The notes under the pieces are model-generated. The model searched no databases. It was given only the letters and a program-made list of their open reading frames with translations, and was not told the origin of the DNA. Positions 7,614-35,963 of a stretch of 42,874 nucleotides of DNA are shown here, piece after piece. The translations under genes and the position numbers were made by a program. This DNA comes from Candidatus Moraniibacteriota bacterium (lineage in GTDB: Bacteria; Patescibacteriota; Minisyncoccia; Moranbacterales; GWC2-37-73): NCBI GenBank assembly GCA_028715015.1, contig JAQTLF010000004.1:1-42874 (forward strand), in the 5' to 3' direction. The stretch's first letter is position 1, and the number at the start of each line of letters is the position of its first letter.

Positions 7614-10319
7614 ATGAAAAACAGAATCAAATTTAGCATTATCGTTAGTCTTGCTTTTTTGGGGTCATGGATGATGCCACAGAAAAGTTTGGCAGCTGCA
7701 AACACATGGACAACTATTGGAACTGCCGGATTTGGTCCAGGAACATCAATGAACTGGGAAGAAAAAATAATTTTTGACCCAGTAACTAAAAACCCCTGGG
7801 TATTAGTATGGGACTCTTCGAATGATCTTTTTTCTGTCATGAAGTATGTTGCTGGATCATGGTCCTATGTTGGAAATTCAGCATTTAATAGCGGTAACCC
7901 TGGGCATTTTCCAGTGCTTGTTTTTAACCCGCAAACAAACGAGCCTTATGTAGCATTTAGAAGTGGGACTGATAGTGCACGTTACAATAGTGTAATGAAA
8001 TTTAATGGCACCAATTGGGTTTATGTTGGACAATACGAACAATTTGCGGATAATTGGGAAACTTCAAATATTGCAACTATTTTTTTAGATTTTGATCCTG
8101 TCACCAATGACCCATATGTATTACAACCCGCATCTGATACTTTGTCTGGAGGTAAACTAATGAGATATAATAGTCCAACAGATAATTGGACTTCCGTTGG
8201 CCCCACAACAAATACCTACACGCTTGTTAATGATACCATCTCAACCTCATTTTATATTGAAGGATTTGCATTCAATAAAAACACTCACAGACCAAATGCA
8301 TTAATAGAAAGACACATTCAAAGCTATGATATGTACAATCAAGATTTCATGCTTATGGAATTCAATGGAACTACATGGTCTCAAGTTGGTGGAATGATAA
8401 ACAGCAGTGCTGATTACACTTATCCTGGATATCCAGACCTGGTTTTTAACCCGGTTACCAATGAACCTTATGTGGCTTATCAAAGAAGTGGTTGCAAAAT
8501 AAAAAAATTTGATGGAGCAAATTGGACCAATATTGGAAATGGGCAATGTAGTACTGACACCGCTTACGCACCGCACATAGCTTTTGATCTTGATACAAAT
8601 ATTCCATACGTTTCTTTTACTGATGATGGAATTAATAACAATTCTGATCAAGCAACTGTCACAAAATTAAATGGAAGCAGCTGGGACGTTGTTGGACAAA
8701 GAGGTTTTTCTTCTCAGGCCACATCAAATGTTCAAATAGCATTCAATCCAACCACAAAAGAACCATGGGTCGCATTCAGAGATTCAGCGAATGGAAACAG
8801 AACAACCGTAATGAAATTCAATTCAAACACGGTTGAAGCGCCAACTGCCTCGCCAGCTGCTGGAATTTATACATCAATTCAATCAGTAACACTCTCGACA
8901 ACAACTTCCGGAGCTGAGATTCGCTACACAACGAATGGATCAACGCCGTCCGCTTCTTCAACTTTATATAGCGGACCAATTTCAGTTTCATCATCTCAAA
9001 CAATCAAGGCGATTGCCATAAAATCAGGAATGGGAGATAGTGATATTTTTTCTGGAACATATACAATAAACATACCGCCAACCGTTTCCACTCCAACAGC
9101 AAGTCCAGCAGGAGGAACTCCGCCAGATAGTGGCACATGCACAGATGAGGATATGAGCATAACATTATCATCTTCAACTCCAGACGTCACCATCTATTAC
9201 ACAACTAACAACACTGACCCATCCAGATCATCAACACAATACACTGAACCCATAAATATCACAGAATCTGCAGTAATAAAAGCATTTGCAGTCAAAAGTG
9301 GCATGCTCGACAGTCAAATTCTCACACAAAACTACTGCATTGTGGTTCATAGACCAATCTTATCGCCAGCTGGCGGAACTTATGATGATCCTCAAACAGT
9401 TACTATGACACTTCCAACTCGCGACTCTTTGGCTTATTACACACTGGATGGTTCAGATCCTTACATGCGAACAGGTGGAGCTTGGTACACAAACGCAGAC
9501 CCGTACGATATAATTATAGATAAAAACACAACACTCAAAACAATTGCATTTAATGGAGCCTTAGTTGCTGGCTTTCCAGTTACAGCAAATTATTACATAA
9601 AAACAAAAAAACCAAGTGCCTCAATTTCTGGCTCAACATATTCATCAAATCAATCAATCACCCTTTCTTCAACCACATCTGGAGCAAGGATCTATTACAC
9701 ACTTAATGGTTCAACTCCAAGTGTATCATCCATCGAATTTGTTGTCGGAGTTAGTGCTCCAATAAGCATTTCATCAACCACAACAATTAAAGCAATTGCA
9801 ATAAAATCTGACTTAACTAATTCAGATGTTATGAGCGAAACGTATACAATAATTTCCCTAGCAACTCCTATTTATCGCCTATACAACACAAAGAATGGCG
9901 CGTTTCTTTACACGAAAGGAGAAGCCGACAGGGATTTTGTGTTAAACAAATTCCATGATTTTGAATTCACAGACGGAATACCTGCCTATTATTCATCTCT
10001 TGATGTTCAAGACGGCTTAACTCCAATTTATCGTTTGTACAACACGAAAAATGGAGCGTTTCTCTATACAAAAGGTGATGCTGATAGGGATTATGTGTTA
10101 AACAAATTCCATGATTTTGAATTTACAGATGGCGCACCGGCATTTTATGCCCCACTGACATATCAAGAAGGTCTGACGCCAATCTACAGACTGTACAACA
10201 GAGTTACAGGCATGTTTCTCTACACCAGAGGAGAAGCCGACAGGGATTATGTTTTGAACAAATGGTCTGATTTCGAATTTACCGATGGCACACCAGCATT
10301 CTATGCAAAAACAAACTAG
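7614..10319 (+). CDS. Secreted multidomain protein: signal peptide, propeller-like repeats, chitobiase/CHB_HEX_C-like repeats, 3 C-terminal RLYN modules
   Basis: MKNRIKFSIIVSLAFLGSWMMPQKSLAA; ISYTTNGSTPS-type repeats; TPIYRLYNTKNGAFLYTKGEADRDFVLNKFHDFEFTDG x3. Start placed at 7614 rather than 7455. Confidence 0.88.
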   Translation: MKNRIKFSIIVSLAFLGSWMMPQKSLAAANTWTTIGTAGFGPGTSMNWEEKIIFDPVTKNPWVLVWDSSNDLFSVMKYVAGSWSYVGNSAFNSGNPGHFPVLVFNPQTNEPYVAFRSGTDSARYNSVMKFNGTNWVYVGQYEQFADNWETSNIATIFLDFDPVTNDPYVLQPASDTLSGGKLMRYNSPTDNWTSVGPTTNTYTLVNDTISTSFYIEGFAFNKNTHRPNALIERHIQSYDMYNQDFMLMEFNGTTWSQVGGMINSSADYTYPGYPDLVFNPVTNEPYVAYQRSGCKIKKFDGANWTNIGNGQCSTDTAYAPHIAFDLDTNIPYVSFTDDGINNNSDQATVTKLNGSSWDVVGQRGFSSQATSNVQIAFNPTTKEPWVAFRDSANGNRTTVMKFNSNTVEAPTASPAAGIYTSIQSVTLSTTTSGAEIRYTTNGSTPSASSTLYSGPISVSSSQTIKAIAIKSGMGDSDIFSGTYTINIPPTVSTPTASPAGGTPPDSGTCTDEDMSITLSSSTPDVTIYYTTNNTDPSRSSTQYTEPINITESAVIKAFAVKSGMLDSQILTQNYCIVVHRPILSPAGGTYDDPQTVTMTLPTRDSLAYYTLDGSDPYMRTGGAWYTNADPYDIIIDKNTTLKTIAFNGALVAGFPVTANYYIKTKKPSASISGSTYSSNQSITLSSTTSGARIYYTLNGSTPSVSSIEFVVGVSAPISISSTTTIKAIAIKSDLTNSDVMSETYTIISLATPIYRLYNTKNGAFLYTKGEADRDFVLNKFHDFEFTDGIPAYYSSLDVQDGLTPIYRLYNTKNGAFLYTKGDADRDYVLNKFHDFEFTDGAPAFYAPLTYQEGLTPIYRLYNRVTGMFLYTRGEADRDYVLNKWSDFEFTDGTPAFYAKTN

Positions 10320-20760: not shown

Positions 20761-22002
20761 TTAATTCCACTCATAATCAACCTCTATAAATCCATGGCTT
20801 TTCTTTTTGGAAACAAACTTAAACTCACTTGATTTTTCAAGTAAATCATAATTTTTAAAAGCATTATCTCCATGAACTGCTGCTTTAATATAATACGTGT
20901 TATTTTTAAGAGGCAAATTGAAAAAATTTATTTGAAAATATCCTAATTTTATATATTTTTCTTTATCAACATCGTCTATAAAAGTATTGATTCCAAATAT
21001 ATACAGACCGTCTTGACTATGAACAGCTAATCCAAAATTAAGATCGTTTTTTGCTTTTTTAATATCAAAATAAACCCTGATTGACATATCGTCTCCAGTC
21101 TCAAAAACATTTTTTTCTTTGCCATCTTTATCCAAAAATTCAACCTTTGTTATTTCTGCAATTTTGTGTGATTCAGTTTTGTTTTCTTCATTTGAAATGG
21201 CAACATTTTTTTCTTTTCCATCTTTCTTTTGCTTTTCTTCGTCAAAAATCCTTTTTTCCTCGTCTGACATGTTTTGATACATGTATTCAGTTCCAACATC
21301 TTCAGCCTTTCCAATTTTTATTATTTTTCCGTTTCTAAGAAGCAATGCTCGATCACAATATCGTTGCACTGTGGCAATATCATGAGTGACCAAAATCACT
21401 GTTTTTCCAGCATCTCTGTATTTGCTGAATTCTGAAAGACATTTTGATTGAAAATTGCTGTCTCCCACAGCCAAAACCTCATCCATCAACAAAATCTCAC
21501 GGTTGGCATGAATTGAAACAGAAAAAGCCAACCGCACTTGCATGCCGGAAGAATAATTTTTCAGTTTTTGATCAATGAATCGCTCCAGTTCAGAAAATTG
21601 CACGATTGAATCAAATTTTTTGTCGATTTCTTTCTTGGAAAGTCCCAAAACAGTGGCATTGAGATACACATTGTCACGACCGGAGAGTTCAGGATTGAAA
21701 CCGATTCCAAGCTCCAAAAATGGCGAAATGCGTCCGTCAATTTTCACGCTTCCCTTGTCGGTCTGATATATGCCAGCCAGGATTTTAAGCAATGTGCTTT
21801 TTCCGCTTCCATTTCGGCCAATGATGCCGAAAAATTCACCTTTTTTCACTTCAAAAGAAACATCGTCAAGGGCTTTAAATTCTTCGTAGGAGTTTTTTTT
21901 GAAAGCCGAAACAGCCGCCCCTCGCAGTGAGGAGATTTTCTCATGAGGAATTTTGAATGTCTTACTGACATTTTTGACGCTTATTGCGATATCTTTGTTC
22001 AT
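20761..22002 (-). CDS. wzt: Polysaccharide ABC transporter ATP-binding protein with Wzt-like C-terminal domain
   Basis: Walker A GIIGRNGSGKSTLL, signature NYSSGMQVRLAFSVSIH, Walker B ILLMDEVLAVGD, beta-rich C-terminus. Confidence 0.9.
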   Translation of the reverse strand: MNKDIAISVKNVSKTFKIPHEKISSLRGAAVSAFKKNSYEEFKALDDVSFEVKKGEFFGIIGRNGSGKSTLLKILAGIYQTDKGSVKIDGRISPFLELGIGFNPELSGRDNVYLNATVLGLSKKEIDKKFDSIVQFSELERFIDQKLKNYSSGMQVRLAFSVSIHANREILLMDEVLAVGDSNFQSKCLSEFSKYRDAGKTVILVTHDIATVQRYCDRALLLRNGKIIKIGKAEDVGTEYMYQNMSDEEKRIFDEEKQKKDGKEKNVAISNEENKTESHKIAEITKVEFLDKDGKEKNVFETGDDMSIRVYFDIKKAKNDLNFGLAVHSQDGLYIFGINTFIDDVDKEKYIKLGYFQINFFNLPLKNNTYYIKAAVHGDNAFKNYDLLEKSSEFKFVSKKKSHGFIEVDYEWN

Positions 22003-22462
22003 AATTTCTAATTTTGAATTTCGAATTTCGAACCAAATTTTAATGTTTCAACTACTTAATTTTGAAATAATCTTTCCAAAAATAAGTGTTAGTTCCTGAG
22101 CTTCTTTCCATAACATGCCTGTTTCTGAAGCTAACTCTGGAGACGCCACTGAAATCATATGCAGCCAGTGCTTACTTTCTTGTATCTCTTTTTTGCAAAT
22201 ATGTATCTTGTTCTTGAAATCTTTCTTTGAGCTGGCACCGTTAGCTTCAGCATAATTGGCTCCCACACTGGTTGAACTCCTGACTATTTGTGAAATAAGC
22301 GGTCTTGTTATTGTATCCTGTTTTATTTTTTTGCACATCAATATGCAGCTTTCACCAAAAGCTGACGTTCTGATTTCTAAATTATACTCTCTTTTGTTAT
22401 TATTTTCAATCATTAGTTTTTCGAAATTGATTCAAAATTCAAAATTGGAAATTCGAAATTTA
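22003..22462. repeat. Cassette 1: heptamer inverted arms around a four-helix-bundle ORF
   Basis: Left AATTTCT AATTTTG AATTTCG AATTTCG; right CGAAATT GATT CAAAATT CAAAATT GGAAATT CGAAATT. Confidence 0.85.
22048..22413 (-). CDS. Four-helix-bundle protein (S23/Avd-like)
   Basis: Family motifs: LISQIVRSSTSVGANYAEANGASSKKDFKNKIHICKKEIQESKHWLHMI. Confidence 0.92.
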   Translation of the reverse strand: MIENNNKREYNLEIRTSAFGESCILMCKKIKQDTITRPLISQIVRSSTSVGANYAEANGASSKKDFKNKIHICKKEIQESKHWLHMISVASPELASETGMLWKEAQELTLIFGKIISKLSS

Positions 22463-22535
22463 TGCAATGTGCTTCATATGGTGCAGGATGGGGATATGGT
22501 GATTTTCTCTTATTTTAAGCCATAATTTATCAATA

Positions 22536-22564
22536 TTGACAGAAAACATGTGATGTGGTAGTAT
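22536..22564 (+). promoter_or_regulatory. Sigma70-like promoter of RNA unit 1
   Basis: TTGACA-17 nt-TAGTAT. Confidence 0.75.
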
Positions 22565-22570
22565 TACTTC

Positions 22571-22627
22571 ATAGAAATCTCGGCCAGGAGGTAACACTCC
22601 ACATCGTTAGGCGGGGATTTTTATTTT
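22571..22627 (+). ncRNA. Candidate structured small RNA 1, convergent with 22638-23045
   Basis: AAUCUC-G-GCC ... GGC-G-GGGAUU closing stem, inner GGAG/CUCC hairpin, U-rich end UUUUUAUUUU. Confidence 0.55.
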
Positions 22628-22637
22628 GTTCAAAATA

Positions 22638-23045
22638 CTACTTTGGTGAAAAACAAGACATCATATATTTTCTTTTTCTTTTATCCTCTTTTATTTGGAC
22701 ATAAAACAAATTCTTCTCCTTGGTTAGTCCCGCAAATCTATACAATATTTCTTTTCTTTCAAAAGACTCCACTTTCTCAACTGGCCCAACCTTGGAATCT
22801 TTTATTAACTCTAGTGATGCATTAAAAAATCGCAATCTGTTCATTCTCTCTTTCTGGGATTTCTGAAACAAATGTTCACGAAAATAGTCTAAAAATATTT
22901 TTTCTTTTTTAAAATAAGCTGACCTAATATATGGCCGTCTTTTTGTTTTCTTCTTGATTTCATCATAAACCAAAAAAGCTTTCTTCATGACCTCGCCGTA
23001 GCTCGTTCCTGAGATTTTATTTGATTTTGTTTGATATGGAATCAT
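22638..23045 (-). CDS. Small basic protein, possibly a RelE/BECR-fold nuclease toxin
   Basis: KRRPYIRSAYFKKEKIFLDYFREHL...ILYRFAGLTKEKNLFYVQIKEDKRKRKYMMSCFSPK; family call from memory only. Confidence 0.6.
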   Translation of the reverse strand: MIPYQTKSNKISGTSYGEVMKKAFLVYDEIKKKTKRRPYIRSAYFKKEKIFLDYFREHLFQKSQKERMNRLRFFNASLELIKDSKVGPVEKVESFERKEILYRFAGLTKEKNLFYVQIKEDKRKRKYMMSCFSPK

Positions 23046-23054
23046 TACTATAAA

Positions 23055-23134
23055 ACAAACCCCGCCATGCCCAAAGGGTCAGGACGGGTGGTTTTAGATG
23101 ATTGAATTATAGCAAAACAAGGAGATGATGTCAA
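23055..23134 (-). promoter_or_regulatory. Perfect-consensus promoter plus GC-rich leader hairpin upstream of the 22638-23045 ORF
   Basis: Minus strand TTGACA (23134-23129), 17 nt, TATAAT (23111-23106); then CCCGTCCTGACCCTTTGGGCATGGCGGGGTTTGTTTT. Confidence 0.75.
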
Positions 23135-23137
23135 AAT

Positions 23138-23209
23138 GCCGCTCATCTTTTCGTGAGGAATGCGGAAAGTTTTGGAAACGTGGGAGACTTTTATGGCAAC
23201 ATCAGACAT
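23138..23209 (-). pseudogene. Truncated N-terminus of a second Wzt-like ATPase
   Basis: MSDVAIKVSHVSKTFRIPHEKMSG parallels MNKDIAISVKNVSKTFKIPHEKISS at 22002; no Walker A follows. Confidence 0.8.
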
Positions 23210-23212
23210 AGC

Positions 23213-23690
23213 TTAGTTTAAAGTTTTAAATTTGAAATTTGAAATCAGTTTTAATTCTCTAAGTTTTTAATTTCCTTATTCCTGCCCTCCATTGTAACAA
23301 TTATCTTGGAAAAAATCAAAGTTAGCTCGTGCGCTTCCTGCCAAAATTTACGACATTCTTCAATATTTTCAACACTTGCTTTGCCCAAAAGCTGCAACCA
23401 GTACTTTGTTTCTTTCGCCTCTTTCTTGCAAATGTATATTTTATTCTTAAAATCTTTCTTGGAACTCGCCCCATTTGCTTCGCAATAGTTTGCGCCAATG
23501 CTTGTAGCTGAGCGTACAAGTTGATTCAAAAGTGGAATTGTCACAATATCTTTGTTTATTTTTCTTATAAATTCAATAATTTCACCGCTGAATTTCGCGG
23601 TTCTGTCTTCGAGTTTGAATTTTTCTTGTGATTTCTCCATTTAAAATTTAGGATTTGATTTTAAATTTAAAACTTTAAACTTAAAAATAT
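23213..23690. repeat. Cassette 2: heptamer inverted arms around a four-helix-bundle ORF
   Basis: Left AGTTTAA AGTTTTA AATTTGA AATTTGA AATC; right TTAAAATTTAGGATTTGATTTTAAATTTAAAACTTTAAACTTAAAAATA. Confidence 0.8.
23251..23640 (-). CDS. Four-helix-bundle protein (S23/Avd-like)
   Basis: LLNQLVRSATSIGANYCEANGASSKKDFKNKIYICKKEAKETKYWLQLL. Confidence 0.92.
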   Translation of the reverse strand: MEKSQEKFKLEDRTAKFSGEIIEFIRKINKDIVTIPLLNQLVRSATSIGANYCEANGASSKKDFKNKIYICKKEAKETKYWLQLLGKASVENIEECRKFWQEAHELTLIFSKIIVTMEGRNKEIKNLEN

Positions 23691-23781: not shown

Positions 23782-24840
23782 TTAAGCAAGAAAGTAATTA
23801 TTGATTGCGAATTTGAATTGTTCAACGAAAAGTTCCTTGAAAAATAATGCGCTGTTTTGCTCATAGAATAACAGAATCGCTTTTTTGTAATCACTCTCAT
23901 TGACACTTCTATATGACAACGGACAAAAGCCATACGCCATCAAGATGGCATTACCCAAAATACGGGCGGTTCGTTTATTTCCATCCTCAAAAGGCTGTAT
24001 ATATGAAATCATCAAAATTGCCATAAGTGCTTTTTCCAGAGGATGCTGGATTTTCCCAATTGCAGATATTGTTTTTTCCAATACTTCTTTTATTTGATAT
24101 TGATTGTCTAATGGTCGATATATTGTTCCAGTAATTCCGACCAAACCTTTGCGCAAGCCTGTTGCCACGTTCAAATCACCGACAATAAGAGCATGCAAAT
24201 CCTCAATTTTCCTCACAGTCAAATCACTGAACACCTCTTTATTATTCAGGACATAATCAAGCGCTTTTTTATGATTCAAAATCATAACCGCCTCTTCTTT
24301 TTCATGCCCCTCTGCTTCCTTGTTTTCACGTATAAGTATTTCCGTATCTATAAGCGAATACGTATTTCCTTCAATCTGTGAAGATTTCCAACTAAGTTCG
24401 ATAGTCAGTCGCTCCAATTCTTTTTTGAAAATCGTTTCCGACATCGAAGCCACTCGCTTTTCGTAAAAATTGTTGATTTCCTGCAATTCGGAAAGCTCAT
24501 CATCATTAAACAAACCGGCCATATTGTCGAATATTTCAAAATTGAAATTAGGATATGTCACCACTCGTTCATCAAGAGTTTTCTTGAAATATTCCTCCAC
24601 ATTGAAATATGATAAAAGTTTGTTCTCAACAGCCTCAAAATATAACACGCTTCTTCCCATTCCTTCTTTTTTGATCAACTTGTTTTCCAACAAAAAATCC
24701 ATATCTCGAATAATCGTAACACGTGAAAAAACCTCACCGAGATCCCTCTCTGTGTATGCCTTAATCTCTCGAGTTCCCACACCTTTTTGTCCCCTTATGA
24801 AGCCAAAAATTGTTGATTGTCTTTTTGTTAAATTAATCAT
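23782..24840 (-). CDS. Fic-domain protein with N-terminal HTH; canonical motif His replaced by Gln
   Basis: SYIQPFEDGNKRTARILGNAI; N-terminal SSQIEGN (SxxxEG inhibitory-type motif). Start placed at MINLTKRQ. Confidence 0.9.
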   Translation of the reverse strand: MINLTKRQSTIFGFIRGQKGVGTREIKAYTERDLGEVFSRVTIIRDMDFLLENKLIKKEGMGRSVLYFEAVENKLLSYFNVEEYFKKTLDERVVTYPNFNFEIFDNMAGLFNDDELSELQEINNFYEKRVASMSETIFKKELERLTIELSWKSSQIEGNTYSLIDTEILIRENKEAEGHEKEEAVMILNHKKALDYVLNNKEVFSDLTVRKIEDLHALIVGDLNVATGLRKGLVGITGTIYRPLDNQYQIKEVLEKTISAIGKIQHPLEKALMAILMISYIQPFEDGNKRTARILGNAILMAYGFCPLSYRSVNESDYKKAILLFYEQNSALFFKELFVEQFKFAINNYFLA

Positions 24841-24852
24841 GCGTGTATATAT

Positions 24853-24895
24853 TTGTATCATTTTATACGATTAATTGTATCATTTTGATACAATT
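24853..24895. promoter_or_regulatory. Candidate autoregulatory operator upstream of Fic
   Basis: AATTGTATCA-TTT-TGATACAATT (24873-24895) plus partial copy TTGTATCATTTTATACGA. Confidence 0.65.
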
Positions 24896-25213: not shown

Positions 25214-25382
25214 CTCATCACTTGTTTTTTGCCTACGTACTTCATATGGTGCATTTGGAATGCGGAATGCGAATACTGGATTGATTTTTGCGATTTCTCC
25301 ATTTTAAATTTAGGATTTGATTTTAAACTTAAAACTTTAAACTTAAAAATATTTCTGCTTGCTTACGTACTTCATATGGTGC
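25214..25382 (+). repeat. ~169-bp duplicated block, copy 1; includes a copy of the cassette 2 right arm
   Basis: CTCATCACTTGTTTTTTGCCTACGTACTTCATATGGTGCA...CTTGCTTACGTACTTCATATGGTGCA. Confidence 0.85.
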
Positions 25383-25434
25383 AGAATGGGAATATAGTTA
25401 TTTTCCATTATTTTAAGCCATAATTTATCAAATA

Positions 25435-25463
25435 TTGACAGAAAACATGTGGTGTGGTAGTAT
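25435..25463 (+). promoter_or_regulatory. Sigma70-like promoter of RNA unit 2
   Basis: TTGACA-17 nt-TAGTAT, nearly identical to 22536-22564. Confidence 0.75.
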
Positions 25464-25469
25464 TAGTTT

Positions 25470-25530
25470 ACAATGGCATCTCGCAAGAGAAGCTCCGAGG
25501 ACTCGCTTAGGCGGGTCCGTTTTTTTATTT
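25470..25530 (+). ncRNA. Candidate structured small RNA 2, convergent with the MazF/PemK-like gene
   Basis: Hairpin GGC-A-UCUC-GCAA-GAGA-A-GCU, then terminator GGACUCGC-UUAG-GCGGGUCC-G-UUUUUUU. Confidence 0.6.
25499..25527 (+). terminator. Terminator of RNA unit 2; T-tract overlaps the last codons of the MazF-like CDS
   Basis: GGACTCGC TTAG GCGGGTCC GTTTTTTT. Confidence 0.85.
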
Positions 25531-25929
25531 TCCTTGTAAAAATTTCACAACCACGCCAAGTATCTTATTAAATTCATCTTTTCCAACAAAACCCAATCTT
25601 CGCAAAAACCTCTTGGTGCTCATAACCCTCAATTGGAAAATAATTGCCGAAAAAAGCTTTCCCTCGTGACTATATTGATAATAATATGGATGATTTTTAA
25701 GTTTTGAACTAAGCGGTATTACTAGTGCTAAGTGTCTGTTTATTTTTCTTAACACTAAAATTGGTCTTTCAAAGTTTTCATTCTTACCGTCTTGTTCATA
25801 GCCTATATTGACACCAAGAGAACACCACCAGATTTCACCTTTTCTAAAATAAATATCCTTGTTAGTTTTATGTAACTCTTGTTTCTTCTTGTTCCAAACT
25901 TCAAATTCTTTTTTGTTTTCTGTTTTCAT
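25525..25929 (-). CDS. MazF/PemK-like toxin family protein; no antitoxin ORF adjacent
   Basis: YFRKGEIWWCSLGVNIGYEQDGKNENFERPILVLRKINRHLALVIPLSSKLK...MSTKRFLRRLGFV. Confidence 0.85.
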   Translation of the reverse strand: MKTENKKEFEVWNKKKQELHKTNKDIYFRKGEIWWCSLGVNIGYEQDGKNENFERPILVLRKINRHLALVIPLSSKLKNHPYYYQYSHEGKLFSAIIFQLRVMSTKRFLRRLGFVGKDEFNKILGVVVKFLQGK

Positions 25930-26550: not shown

Positions 26551-28113
26551 ATGAAAATAAAAAAAATCAAACGAATATTCATATTTATATTTTTTTTCAC
26601 GTCATTAACCATTGCCTCCAAATCAGCCGAGGCATATTGTGTTTATGATGGAGGAAATTTTCATCTTCAAAGCGATCCGAATCAGATTCTTATGCCAATT
26701 CACCGCCTTTACAACACAAATAATGGTGCGTATCTTTATACGAAAAGTGTTGCCGATGCCAATTACGTTTTGGGAAAATGGCCTGAATTTGAATTTACTG
26801 ATGGAATACCGGCTTTTTGTGCATATTCCATATACAAAGATGGACTTACGCCAATATACAGGCTATACAACACAAAAAATGGCGCTTATTTATACACCCG
26901 AGGTGAAGCTGATAGGGATTATGTTTTAAATAAATATAAGGATTTTGAATTTACTGATGGTGTTGCATCGTTTTATGCATCACTGACAATGCAAGATGGA
27001 TTGACACCAATTTACAGACTATTCAACACGAAGAATGGAATGTTTCTCTATACAAGAGGTGCAACTGACAGGGATTATGTCATGAGTAAATGGCCTGAAT
27101 TTGAATTTACTGATGGAATTCCAGCATTCTATGCAGACACCACAAATGACTCTGGCCCTGCATTGTTTAAATATGAAGGTCCTGAAATTTCAGTCGGACT
27201 TTGGTACTATGGAAAAACTGACATCCAAAATTCGAATTTCAAAATAAGTGCCAATAAGACATACAACATCAGAGATGCTGCGGGCAATATTTTGGCGCAA
27301 GCGGGAGGAAGTTCAACCACGAGTGTTGGATATGATGACAACCAAAACCAATTGACTGTCGAAGGACCATTGAGCAAAGTTATTGCCGGCAAAACCGTCA
27401 CTTTTGATGCAGCCGATGGTGACAACTCCACTCTCATTTTCGACACCCATCGTTCAAGTTTTGTTTCCGATTGGCGTGGAAAAATCGACAACTACAGAGG
27501 GAAAATAAAAATCCAATATTATCGCGGATATGACATTGCAAACGGGGCGGCACCTGGTAGCGCAGATGTGACCCAGATTTGGGTCAACAACATTCTGCCA
27601 TTGGAACAATATGTTTGGGGATCGGCAGAAACAAACGGAACAAAAGCCCTCAACCACACACAAGTGATGACCACGGCCGTCAGGACCTATGGTTTTTGGT
27701 ATATCAAATATGCCAACAAATATTCAGCACTTGGTTTCAAAATCCGCTCAGACAGCGGTTCGCAAAATTATGGAGGATACGATTGGGAAAAAAATCATCC
27801 AAACATAAAAACAGCAGCTCAAAACACGCGCGGGGTCATTGCAACTTATGCAGGCGACGTGGCACTCACGCCCTACTCTTCAGCCAGCGACGGCAGGACA
27901 AGAAGTTGGCAGGAAAAATGGGGTTCCACAGATTATCCTTGGTGCCAATCAGTCCCCGACCCATATGGCAAAGATCTCTCCAGATCATCAGGCAGCCACA
28001 TGGTCGGACTCATCGGATTCGGCTCAGAAAATTTGGCCAGCACCTACGGCTGGGACTGGCAAAGAATTTTGCATTATTATTATACTAATATTTCACTTCC
28101 GGTGAATTATTAA
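26551..28113 (+). CDS. Secreted protein with 3 RLYN modules and a SpoIID/LytB-like domain
   Basis: Signal peptide; TPIYRLYNTKNGAYLYTRGEADRDYVLNKYKDFEFTDG x3; ILPLEQYVWGSAETNG...QVMTTAVRTYGFW...SGSHMVGLIGFGSENLASTYGWDWQRILHYYY. Confidence 0.87.
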   Translation: MKIKKIKRIFIFIFFFTSLTIASKSAEAYCVYDGGNFHLQSDPNQILMPIHRLYNTNNGAYLYTKSVADANYVLGKWPEFEFTDGIPAFCAYSIYKDGLTPIYRLYNTKNGAYLYTRGEADRDYVLNKYKDFEFTDGVASFYASLTMQDGLTPIYRLFNTKNGMFLYTRGATDRDYVMSKWPEFEFTDGIPAFYADTTNDSGPALFKYEGPEISVGLWYYGKTDIQNSNFKISANKTYNIRDAAGNILAQAGGSSTTSVGYDDNQNQLTVEGPLSKVIAGKTVTFDAADGDNSTLIFDTHRSSFVSDWRGKIDNYRGKIKIQYYRGYDIANGAAPGSADVTQIWVNNILPLEQYVWGSAETNGTKALNHTQVMTTAVRTYGFWYIKYANKYSALGFKIRSDSGSQNYGGYDWEKNHPNIKTAAQNTRGVIATYAGDVALTPYSSASDGRTRSWQEKWGSTDYPWCQSVPDPYGKDLSRSSGSHMVGLIGFGSENLASTYGWDWQRILHYYYTNISLPVNY

Positions 28114-30554: not shown

Positions 30555-30771
30555 TTGAATCTCCTTTCGTCCTGATGGTTGATTGGTTGCTTGCCTGTGG
30601 GTTGTTTTTACAAAGAACACTGCATCACTACCCTGTCTTTGTACCTCATTTTCCCCCTCCCGTCAAGCCCAAAATGGTTCCATATTCTTAAATTTATCTA
30701 AAAATAGCCGCATTCAGTTTTACAAAAAAGTTTTAACAACTTACCCCACCGACCCTTCTACCCAAAAACCC

Positions 30772-31126
30772 ATTATTCCACTTCTCGACGACCGCATGAA
30801 TCTGGAATATATCTTGATCTTGTTGCTATTATTTTACTGTCACTGCTTAATATTCAATGGATTATATGCAAACACGGCTCACATGATTTGCCCAAACCCA
30901 TTATTCCACTTCTCGACAACCGCATGGTTGTGGAATATAAATATTTTACAACAACACGAAAAAACTAGTTTATTTCAATACAAAACCAATTATGCCACTT
31001 CCAGACGACCGCATGGTTGTGGAATATGTGCCTCATGACAACAATACAGCAAGTCAAGTCCTCGTATAATTTATTAATAAAAAAGATTGTTCCACTTTTG
31101 GACGACCGCATGGTTCTGAAATAATG
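30772..31126. repeat. Hairpin repeat family, copies A-D (30772-30810, 30899-30938, 30989-31027, 31085-31124)
   Basis: Consensus ATTCCACTTYYNGACGACCGCATGGTTGTGGAATAT. Confidence 0.9.
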
Positions 31127-35671: not shown

Positions 35672-35695
35672 CATCAAAATTTCCAACTTATCAAC

Positions 35696-35858
35696 ATATT
35701 CCACTTCCAGACGACCGCATGGTTGTGGAATATAAAATATAAATATAAATATAAATATAAATATAAATATAAATATTATATCAACACGTAAAATCCTGCA
35801 TATTCCTATGCAAAAACGATTGTTCCACTTTTGGACGACCGCATGGTTTTGGAATAAT
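35696..35858. repeat. Hairpin repeat family, copies E and F (35696-35733, 35817-35858)
   Basis: Same consensus as 30772-31126. Confidence 0.9.
35731..35776 (+). repeat. Hexanucleotide tandem repeat (AAATAT)n
   Basis: Seven to eight units between repeats E and F. Confidence 0.9.
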
Positions 35859-35963
35859 GGTGATTTGCTATGATTATATCTGCTTTTGAACAAGAAGATT
35901 TGAACAAGAAGAAAGGCCCTTGCATTCGCAAGAGCCTTGATGCGTCACACAAGTGTGACAATA

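Follow-up and report, generated by a model that had tools for sequence, protein, structure and literature searches.

Results

Two convergent RNA and gene units in the window

The window analysed here, a stretch of 42,874 nt that makes up contig C4 of a 1.06-Mb genome, holds two units about 2.9 kb apart, in each of which a predicted small RNA converges with a toxin-like gene (Table 1). The promoter blocks of the two units are 90% identical over approximately 101 nt (22469-22569 versus 25367-25468), which bears out the near-identity of the upstream regions claimed in the preliminary description, and this block exists in only two copies in the genome. The promoter and the terminator that had been proposed for RNA unit 2 could both be located, and promoters of the same type also lie antisense to the toxin gene in homologous loci. 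The terminator T-tract had further been said to encode the last codons of the toxin gene. Actually, T7 overlaps the stop codon only, and it is the T-rich stretch beyond T7 that encodes the last codons. The predicted fold of RNA unit 2 was better than those of 199 out of 200 dinucleotide shuffles (z -3.4). Searched against Rfam 15, the window matched one tRNA only, and the homologous loci gave no meaningful match.

Table 1. Features of the two convergent units, with positions in the window
Feature	Position	Strand	Remarks
Promoter of RNA unit 1	22536-22564	+	TTGACA, 17 nt, TAGTAT with TG
RNA unit 1	22572-22626	+	R2 match, 56.4 bits; fold z -5.3 against dinucleotide shuffles
Gene 2	22638-23045	-	135-aa family without a Pfam name; partner of RNA unit 1
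Promoter of RNA unit 2	25435-25463	+	TTGACA, 17 nt, TAGTAT, with TG before the -10 (extended -10); 10/12 matches
RNA unit 2 (MazF-linked RNA)	25464-25526	+	about 57-60 nt; R1 match 25464-25525, 51.2 bits, E 4.2e-14; predicted start near 25470, from the position of the -10
Parts of RNA unit 2	P1 hairpin 25475-25494; CCGAG 25495-25499	+	leader ACAAU; P1 closing GGC/GCU with UCUC-GCAA-GAGA inside; then P2 and U-tract
P2, intrinsic terminator stem	25499-25518	+	8-bp GC-rich hairpin, then T7 (25520-25526); P2 covariation in homologues
Orphan PemK/MazF-like toxin gene	25525-25929	-	134 aa; stop codon 25525-25527 overlaps the RNA U-tract

As for the surroundings of the units, short repeats around CTTCATATGGTGCA lie at window positions 22469, 25230, 25367, 26254 and 26383, some of them also on contigs C10 and C34, and this mobile-looking family flanks both RNA units. 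Genes for wzt-like ABC transporters, or their 5' fragments, often adjoin the toxin units (window 20761-23251; L041, L032 and L221; for example MSDVAIKVSHVSKTFRIPHEK upstream of gene 2), which suggests a shared insertion site. Two 23S rRNA-intervening-sequence (four-helix) proteins and one Fic protein are encoded among the two units (22048-22413, 23251-23640 and 23782-24861). An imperfect inverted repeat of about 48 nt (ATTCCACTT..GACGACCGCATGGTTGTGGAATA) is found in six copies in apparently non-coding stretches of the window (30765-31126 and 35688-35859), along with four repeats of about 300 nt (9853-10308 and 26681-27136). The pair at 26681-27136 encodes DUF5648 repeats of the protein at 26551-28113, which also carries a SpoIID domain.

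A MazF-like toxin gene lacking an adjacent antitoxin ORF

The gene at 25525-25929 had been described as MazF/PemK-like, and its product indeed matches the Pfam profile PemK_toxin (PF02452) with 41.9 bits against a cut-off of 23.1 (E 1.3e-10). This is its only match in Pfam, and NCBIfam and PADLOC gave none. The AF2 model of the 134-aa protein (pLDDT 81.5) has 106 PDB matches at E<=0.001, with E values down to 6e-7, the best of which is M. tuberculosis MazF-mt1. The catalytic positions are kept, R25 and T48 of EndoA aligning with R55 and S74. With a profile score above the curated cut-off, a MazF fold, and the catalytic Arg and Thr/Ser, the protein belongs to the PemK/MazF family. No antitoxin ORF adjoins the gene among the ORFs of the window, in agreement with the earlier claim.

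The RNA accompanies the toxin across genomes

Homologues of the toxin are patchily distributed. They occur in 12 of 142 genomes and in none of five congeners, in 74 of 384 genomes of the class, and in 374 confirmed stretches of the GTDB species collection. The best 80 of these 374 stretches were taken on; nearly all are from Patescibacteria, and Lactococcus taiwanensis is among them. At the 3' ends of the homologues, the antisense strand repeatedly carries a sigma-70-type promoter, an RNA of approximately 55-60 nt and a U-tract. The parts of these RNAs follow the order leader ((U)ACAAAU or AUUAGU), P1 (e.g. GGC-UUCG-GCC), YCGAG, P2, CG, and U-tract. In a second subtype, an A-rich stretch comes after P1 and P2, and the terminator is a hairpin of its own, which lies over the toxin 3' end. 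Only a few loci have two copies of the RNA, and the window has a single unit.

From 34 homologous RNAs we built the covariance model R1; the RNA of the window is one of the 34, and independent support comes from the homologues. Across 377 kb of loci, R1 gave 79 matches; with the exception of a few weak ones, they lie on the opposite strand at the 3' end of a toxin gene. We then counted the RNA by gene, in the 108 distinct toxin genes with enough flanking sequence, whose loci are related by descent. Sixty-eight had an R1 match at E<=0.01 and 11 at E<=1, while 20 showed the leader/P1 motif, a test with false positives in 2 of 19 canonical controls. Nine had neither, seven of which carry a variant leader and hairpins, judged by eye only. 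The remaining two, L040 and L078, had no RNA by model, motif or eye. The RNA overlaps the toxin coding sequence by a median of 2 nt (n=40) and usually by 0-5 nt. ACAAATG occurred in 46 of 114 antisense regions versus once on the other strand, and a promoter score of at least 10 was reached at 47 of 106 loci on the antisense strand and at one of 106 on the sense strand. RNA-toxin pairing is near-obligate in this PemK/MazF branch, and the two very probably form one functional unit.

As controls, we used 19 ordinary PemK/MazF loci of the same class, which have higher Pfam scores than the RNA-linked branch. An overlapping antitoxin-like ORF lies upstream of the toxin gene in 17 of these 19 loci, and the RNA lies at the 3' end in none of them; two weak R1 matches within the control loci were elsewhere or on the wrong strand. 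Small upstream ORFs in the RNA-linked branch are scattered (28/106) and mutually dissimilar. The contrast between 17 control loci with an upstream ORF and none with the RNA means that RNA and protein antitoxin are mutually exclusive, one replacing the other. The preliminary description had envisaged a module for toxin control linked to an RNA, set apart from classic type III by its convergent layout, and had proposed a genome survey in which lack of conservation would speak against it. What we found is an RNA conserved with the MazF-like gene, kept with the toxin in Patescibacteria and Lactococcus and missing from the protein-antitoxin PemK genes of the class.

Conserved structure of the MazF-linked RNA

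In the seed alignment of R1, 88.7% of the cells are paired. Double-sided changes numbered 73 versus 25.8 in shuffles, none of which reached the score; every slid register scored far lower, and a larger alignment agrees. Covariation in the MazF-RNA alignments was above that of all 500 shuffles. It is strong in P2, which doubles as the terminator. Covariation of P2 by itself would be expected of a terminator too, so that more weight falls on the leader, on P1, and on GAG and CG. A P1 stem of at least 3 bp is present in 66 of the 79 RNAs and ends 1-2 nt before YGAG in 63; P1 is short, and as the alignments are registered, 61-66% of its cells pair. GAG and CG are invariant throughout the family. 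The predicted folds are compatible with two readings of GAG...CG, as the G-C pair that closes P2 or as a CG/CG clamp from which AG bulges out.

RNAs without the toxin

Scanning 238 genomes with R1, without use of the toxin, gave 33 matches, most of them at the 3' ends of toxin genes. Toxin fragments adjoin two of the matches (L187 and L193). Six, a small number, are solitary (L167, L168, L177, L180, L188, and L196) and might be remnants. The toxin frame of Lactococcus taiwanensis is interrupted by an early stop, while its RNA reaches 48.6 bits. Genomes tolerate the RNA in the absence of the toxin, but the toxin is rarely found in the absence of the RNA, and this is the asymmetry predicted for an antitoxin. 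Moreover, solitary RNAs are easier to reconcile with action in trans than with a cis-antisense role. Matches at L189 and L190, inside or beside unrelated coding sequence, were taken as false. We also considered the 136-aa protein beside the solitary RNA of L188 as a third partner family; four of its homologues have no RNA, and we regard it as a chance neighbour.

Gene 2 and its RNA

Gene 2 was found in 14 of 142 relatives and in 13 of 286 class genomes, with convergent RNA at the 3' ends. A convergent promoter and a structurally distinct RNA accompany 25 of the 25 full-length homologues examined in these two sets. The preliminary description had named the product a BECR nuclease, an assignment that our searches did not reproduce: the product had no convincing match in Pfam, NCBIfam or PADLOC, 13 members of the family had no relevant match in Pfam, and the predicted fold (pLDDT 89) had no significant match in the PDB (best E 0.58). 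In RNA unit 1, a long outer stem that also serves as the terminator is followed by a 1x1 mismatch, GCC/GGC, an inner hairpin and a 3' asymmetric loop ACAUCGUUA. This fold is common to most of 24 homologous RNAs, with the 3' loop conserved.

The model R2, built from these 24 RNAs, finds the RNA in 27 of 27 loci searched, although its alignment is imperfect and the covariation support is weaker than for R1. Among its 20 best matches in the 286 genomes (E<1e-5), 15 adjoin gene 2 and five do not, one of the latter having a weak gene 2 remnant. Low-scoring matches on both strands were symmetrical hairpins and were taken as false. The two RNA bodies had been thought to be related. Within the window, however, R1 matches only 25464-25525 and R2 only 22572-22626, each being blind to the other's RNA, and the supposedly common TTAGGCGGG is variable P2 stem/loop sequence within the MazF-RNA family. 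Since neither model recognises the other RNA, the two unrelated toxin-like families have a common layout and not a common RNA.

Some further features of gene 2 loci deserve mention. In L202, the core of the gene 2-type RNA occurs twice in tandem in one predicted transcript, antisense at the 3' end of a gene 2 homologue, which recalls type III repeats. In the window (23045-23134, - strand), a perfect promoter, TTGACA-17-TATAAT, is followed by a hairpin and a U-rich tract (CACCCGTCCTGACC...GGCATGGCGGGGTTTGTTTT) just before the start codon of gene 2, and a nearly identical leader precedes the MazF gene in L032 and L059. This leader looks like an attenuator limiting toxin expression. Solitary gene 2-type RNAs lie opposite the 3' ends of a Fic-like gene (9 nt) and a PIN/VapC-like gene (30 nt) in L230 and L233, which reflects either chance or capture by other toxins.

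Discussion

Given that the RNA accompanies the toxin branch in place of a protein antitoxin, the MazF-linked RNA is probably an antitoxin, and it may well act by binding the toxin protein. The locus would then be a toxin-antitoxin module in which a small structured RNA, transcribed in the direction of the toxin gene, serves as the antitoxin. Produced in excess from its own promoter, the RNA would bind the MazF-like endoribonuclease directly; as a decoy made up of the leader, P1, P2 and the conserved GAG between them, it would fill the substrate groove and hold the toxin inactive. When the RNA supply falls, through loss of the module or transcription shut-off, the more stable toxin would be freed and would cut RNA. 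Gene 2 would form, with RNA unit 1, a second pair of this layout that is unrelated to the first. The recognition sequences of MazF enzymes include UACAU and ACA, and the resemblance of the leader to them suggests a substrate-mimic decoy.

We infer a transcribed RNA and a toxic protein, which would be neutralised by contact with the RNA rather than by RNA-RNA pairing. Three observations point to protein binding: invariants of structure and sequence lie outside the coding sequence and recur from Patescibacteria to Lactococcus, the RNA survives without the gene, and the median overlap is 2 nt. The direct-binding precedent of AbiF/RCd22 (PMC12373285) counts on the same side. Alternatively, the convergent RNA could be a type I-like cis-antisense RNA, which pairs with the toxin mRNA at its 3' end or UTR and leads to its block or degradation. 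A convergent RNA is by necessity complementary to the 3' region of the toxin and to any toxin transcript extending past the stop codon, and a published convergent antisense RNA, asRelE2, controls a RelE toxin (PMC9325379). Nevertheless, we consider this explanation unlikely: the overlap with the coding sequence is slight, the RNAs persist without the toxin gene, and cis pairing is automatic and needs no invariants or leader kept over such a range of genomes.

A strong antisense promoter and a terminator would also be expected if the unit merely limited toxin transcription, by convergent promoter, terminator or transcriptional interference, with a functionless RNA product. Yet P1, the leader and GAG are conserved beyond the needs of a terminator, and both tandem RNA copies and solitary RNAs exist, so that this possibility appears quite improbable. 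Obligate pairing and conserved structure fit equally well with an RNA that serves as a cofactor or guide, steering the MazF-like nuclease to its targets as an RNP effector instead of inhibiting it; no variable guide-like segment was seen in the RNA, however, and the RNAs survive without the nuclease, and we give this reading very little weight. Finally, a leaderless mRNA for a peptide antitoxin, starting at the conserved AUG in ACAAAUGG, was rejected, because the AUG, while frequent at the leader, is missing in 17 of 79 RNAs, the invariant GAG falls in all three frames relative to it (30/11/11) with no frame conserved, and the peptides are dissimilar.

An antitoxin RNA that binds the toxin protein would bring the locus closest in function to type III systems. 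The ToxN fold is related to that of MazF, and the type III systems (ToxIN, AbiQ, CptIN, and TenpIN) share with the present locus an endoribonuclease toxin of MazF-like fold, a small structured RNA as presumed antitoxin and the absence of a protein antitoxin. In type III, the RNA is a pseudoknotted array of 34-50-nt repeats, located upstream on the same strand, with a terminator before the toxin in one operon (PMC5086642, PMC12373285). Here, by contrast, a single-copy RNA with two hairpins is convergent on the opposite strand and has its own promoter, the terminator belongs to the RNA strand and does not separate RNA from toxin on the strand of the toxin, and the toxin is of the PemK family, not ToxN, CptN or TenpN. 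In AbiF/RCd22 of C. difficile (Rfam RF03085, abiF motif), a toxic protein is neutralised when a structured RNA binds it directly, both in cis and in trans (PMC12373285), a contact that we predict for our locus. The protein in that case belongs to Abi_2, and the RNA is a different one, located upstream on the same strand and carrying two abiF motifs. With the type II systems MazEF and PemIK, the locus shares toxin family, fold and catalytic positions, but MazE/PemI is absent, and the 106 loci have no consistent upstream ORF as opposed to 17 of 19 canonical controls. A convergent RNA at the toxin 3' end is also known from TxpA/RatA and BsrG/SR4, whose RNAs are the antisense antitoxins of B. subtilis type I pairs. 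TxpA and BsrG are small hydrophobic peptides, unlike the 134-aa MazF-like protein. In RelBE2-asRelE2 of M. tuberculosis, another convergent case, asRelE2 spans the whole coding sequence and RelB is present too (PMC9325379). In our loci, the RNA overlaps the coding sequence by about 2 nt and its structure is conserved, and complementarity to the toxin transcript is confined to the 3' end or UTR. The tested features fit neither type III, type II nor, by toxin type, type I.

The literature searched (open-licence PMC papers, preprints excluded) contained no description of a convergent RNA-toxin pair; a prior description elsewhere is possible, and this convergent, single-copy arrangement of an RNA antitoxin has probably not been described before. 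The chance seems to us about even that at least two unrelated toxin families of Patescibacteria each evolved or acquired a dedicated, convergent, single-copy RNA antitoxin, which would make this a general toxin-antitoxin layout. If so, surveys of toxin-antitoxin and defence systems overlook it because they search for protein antitoxins or upstream repeats, and many MazF toxins annotated as orphans belong to it. It would account for a large MazF branch that does without MazE and would extend the RNA antitoxins to a layout beyond the reach of standard searches. Two new RNA families, each with a defined protein partner, would be gained as well. The idea is directly testable in E. coli, with an independent homologous locus in Lactococcus, outside this mostly uncultured phylum.

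More distant relatives may extend the picture. R1 had no sequence match at the MazF homologues of Campylobacter CJIE4, Nitratiruptor and Latilactobacillus. Distant orphan MazF genes in Campylobacter phages (L197 and L198), on a Nitratiruptor plasmid (L199) and on a viral contig (L214) nevertheless face a convergent -10 element and hairpins, with no R1 match; the Nitratiruptor locus and the viral locus have a leader and two hairpins at the toxin 3' end. Possibly, these represent further RNA classes of convergent layout. For the related MazF of the Campylobacter CJIE4 prophage, the protein was detected and no MazE gene was found (PMC3995785), which, although R1 has no match there, is consistent with a hidden RNA partner.
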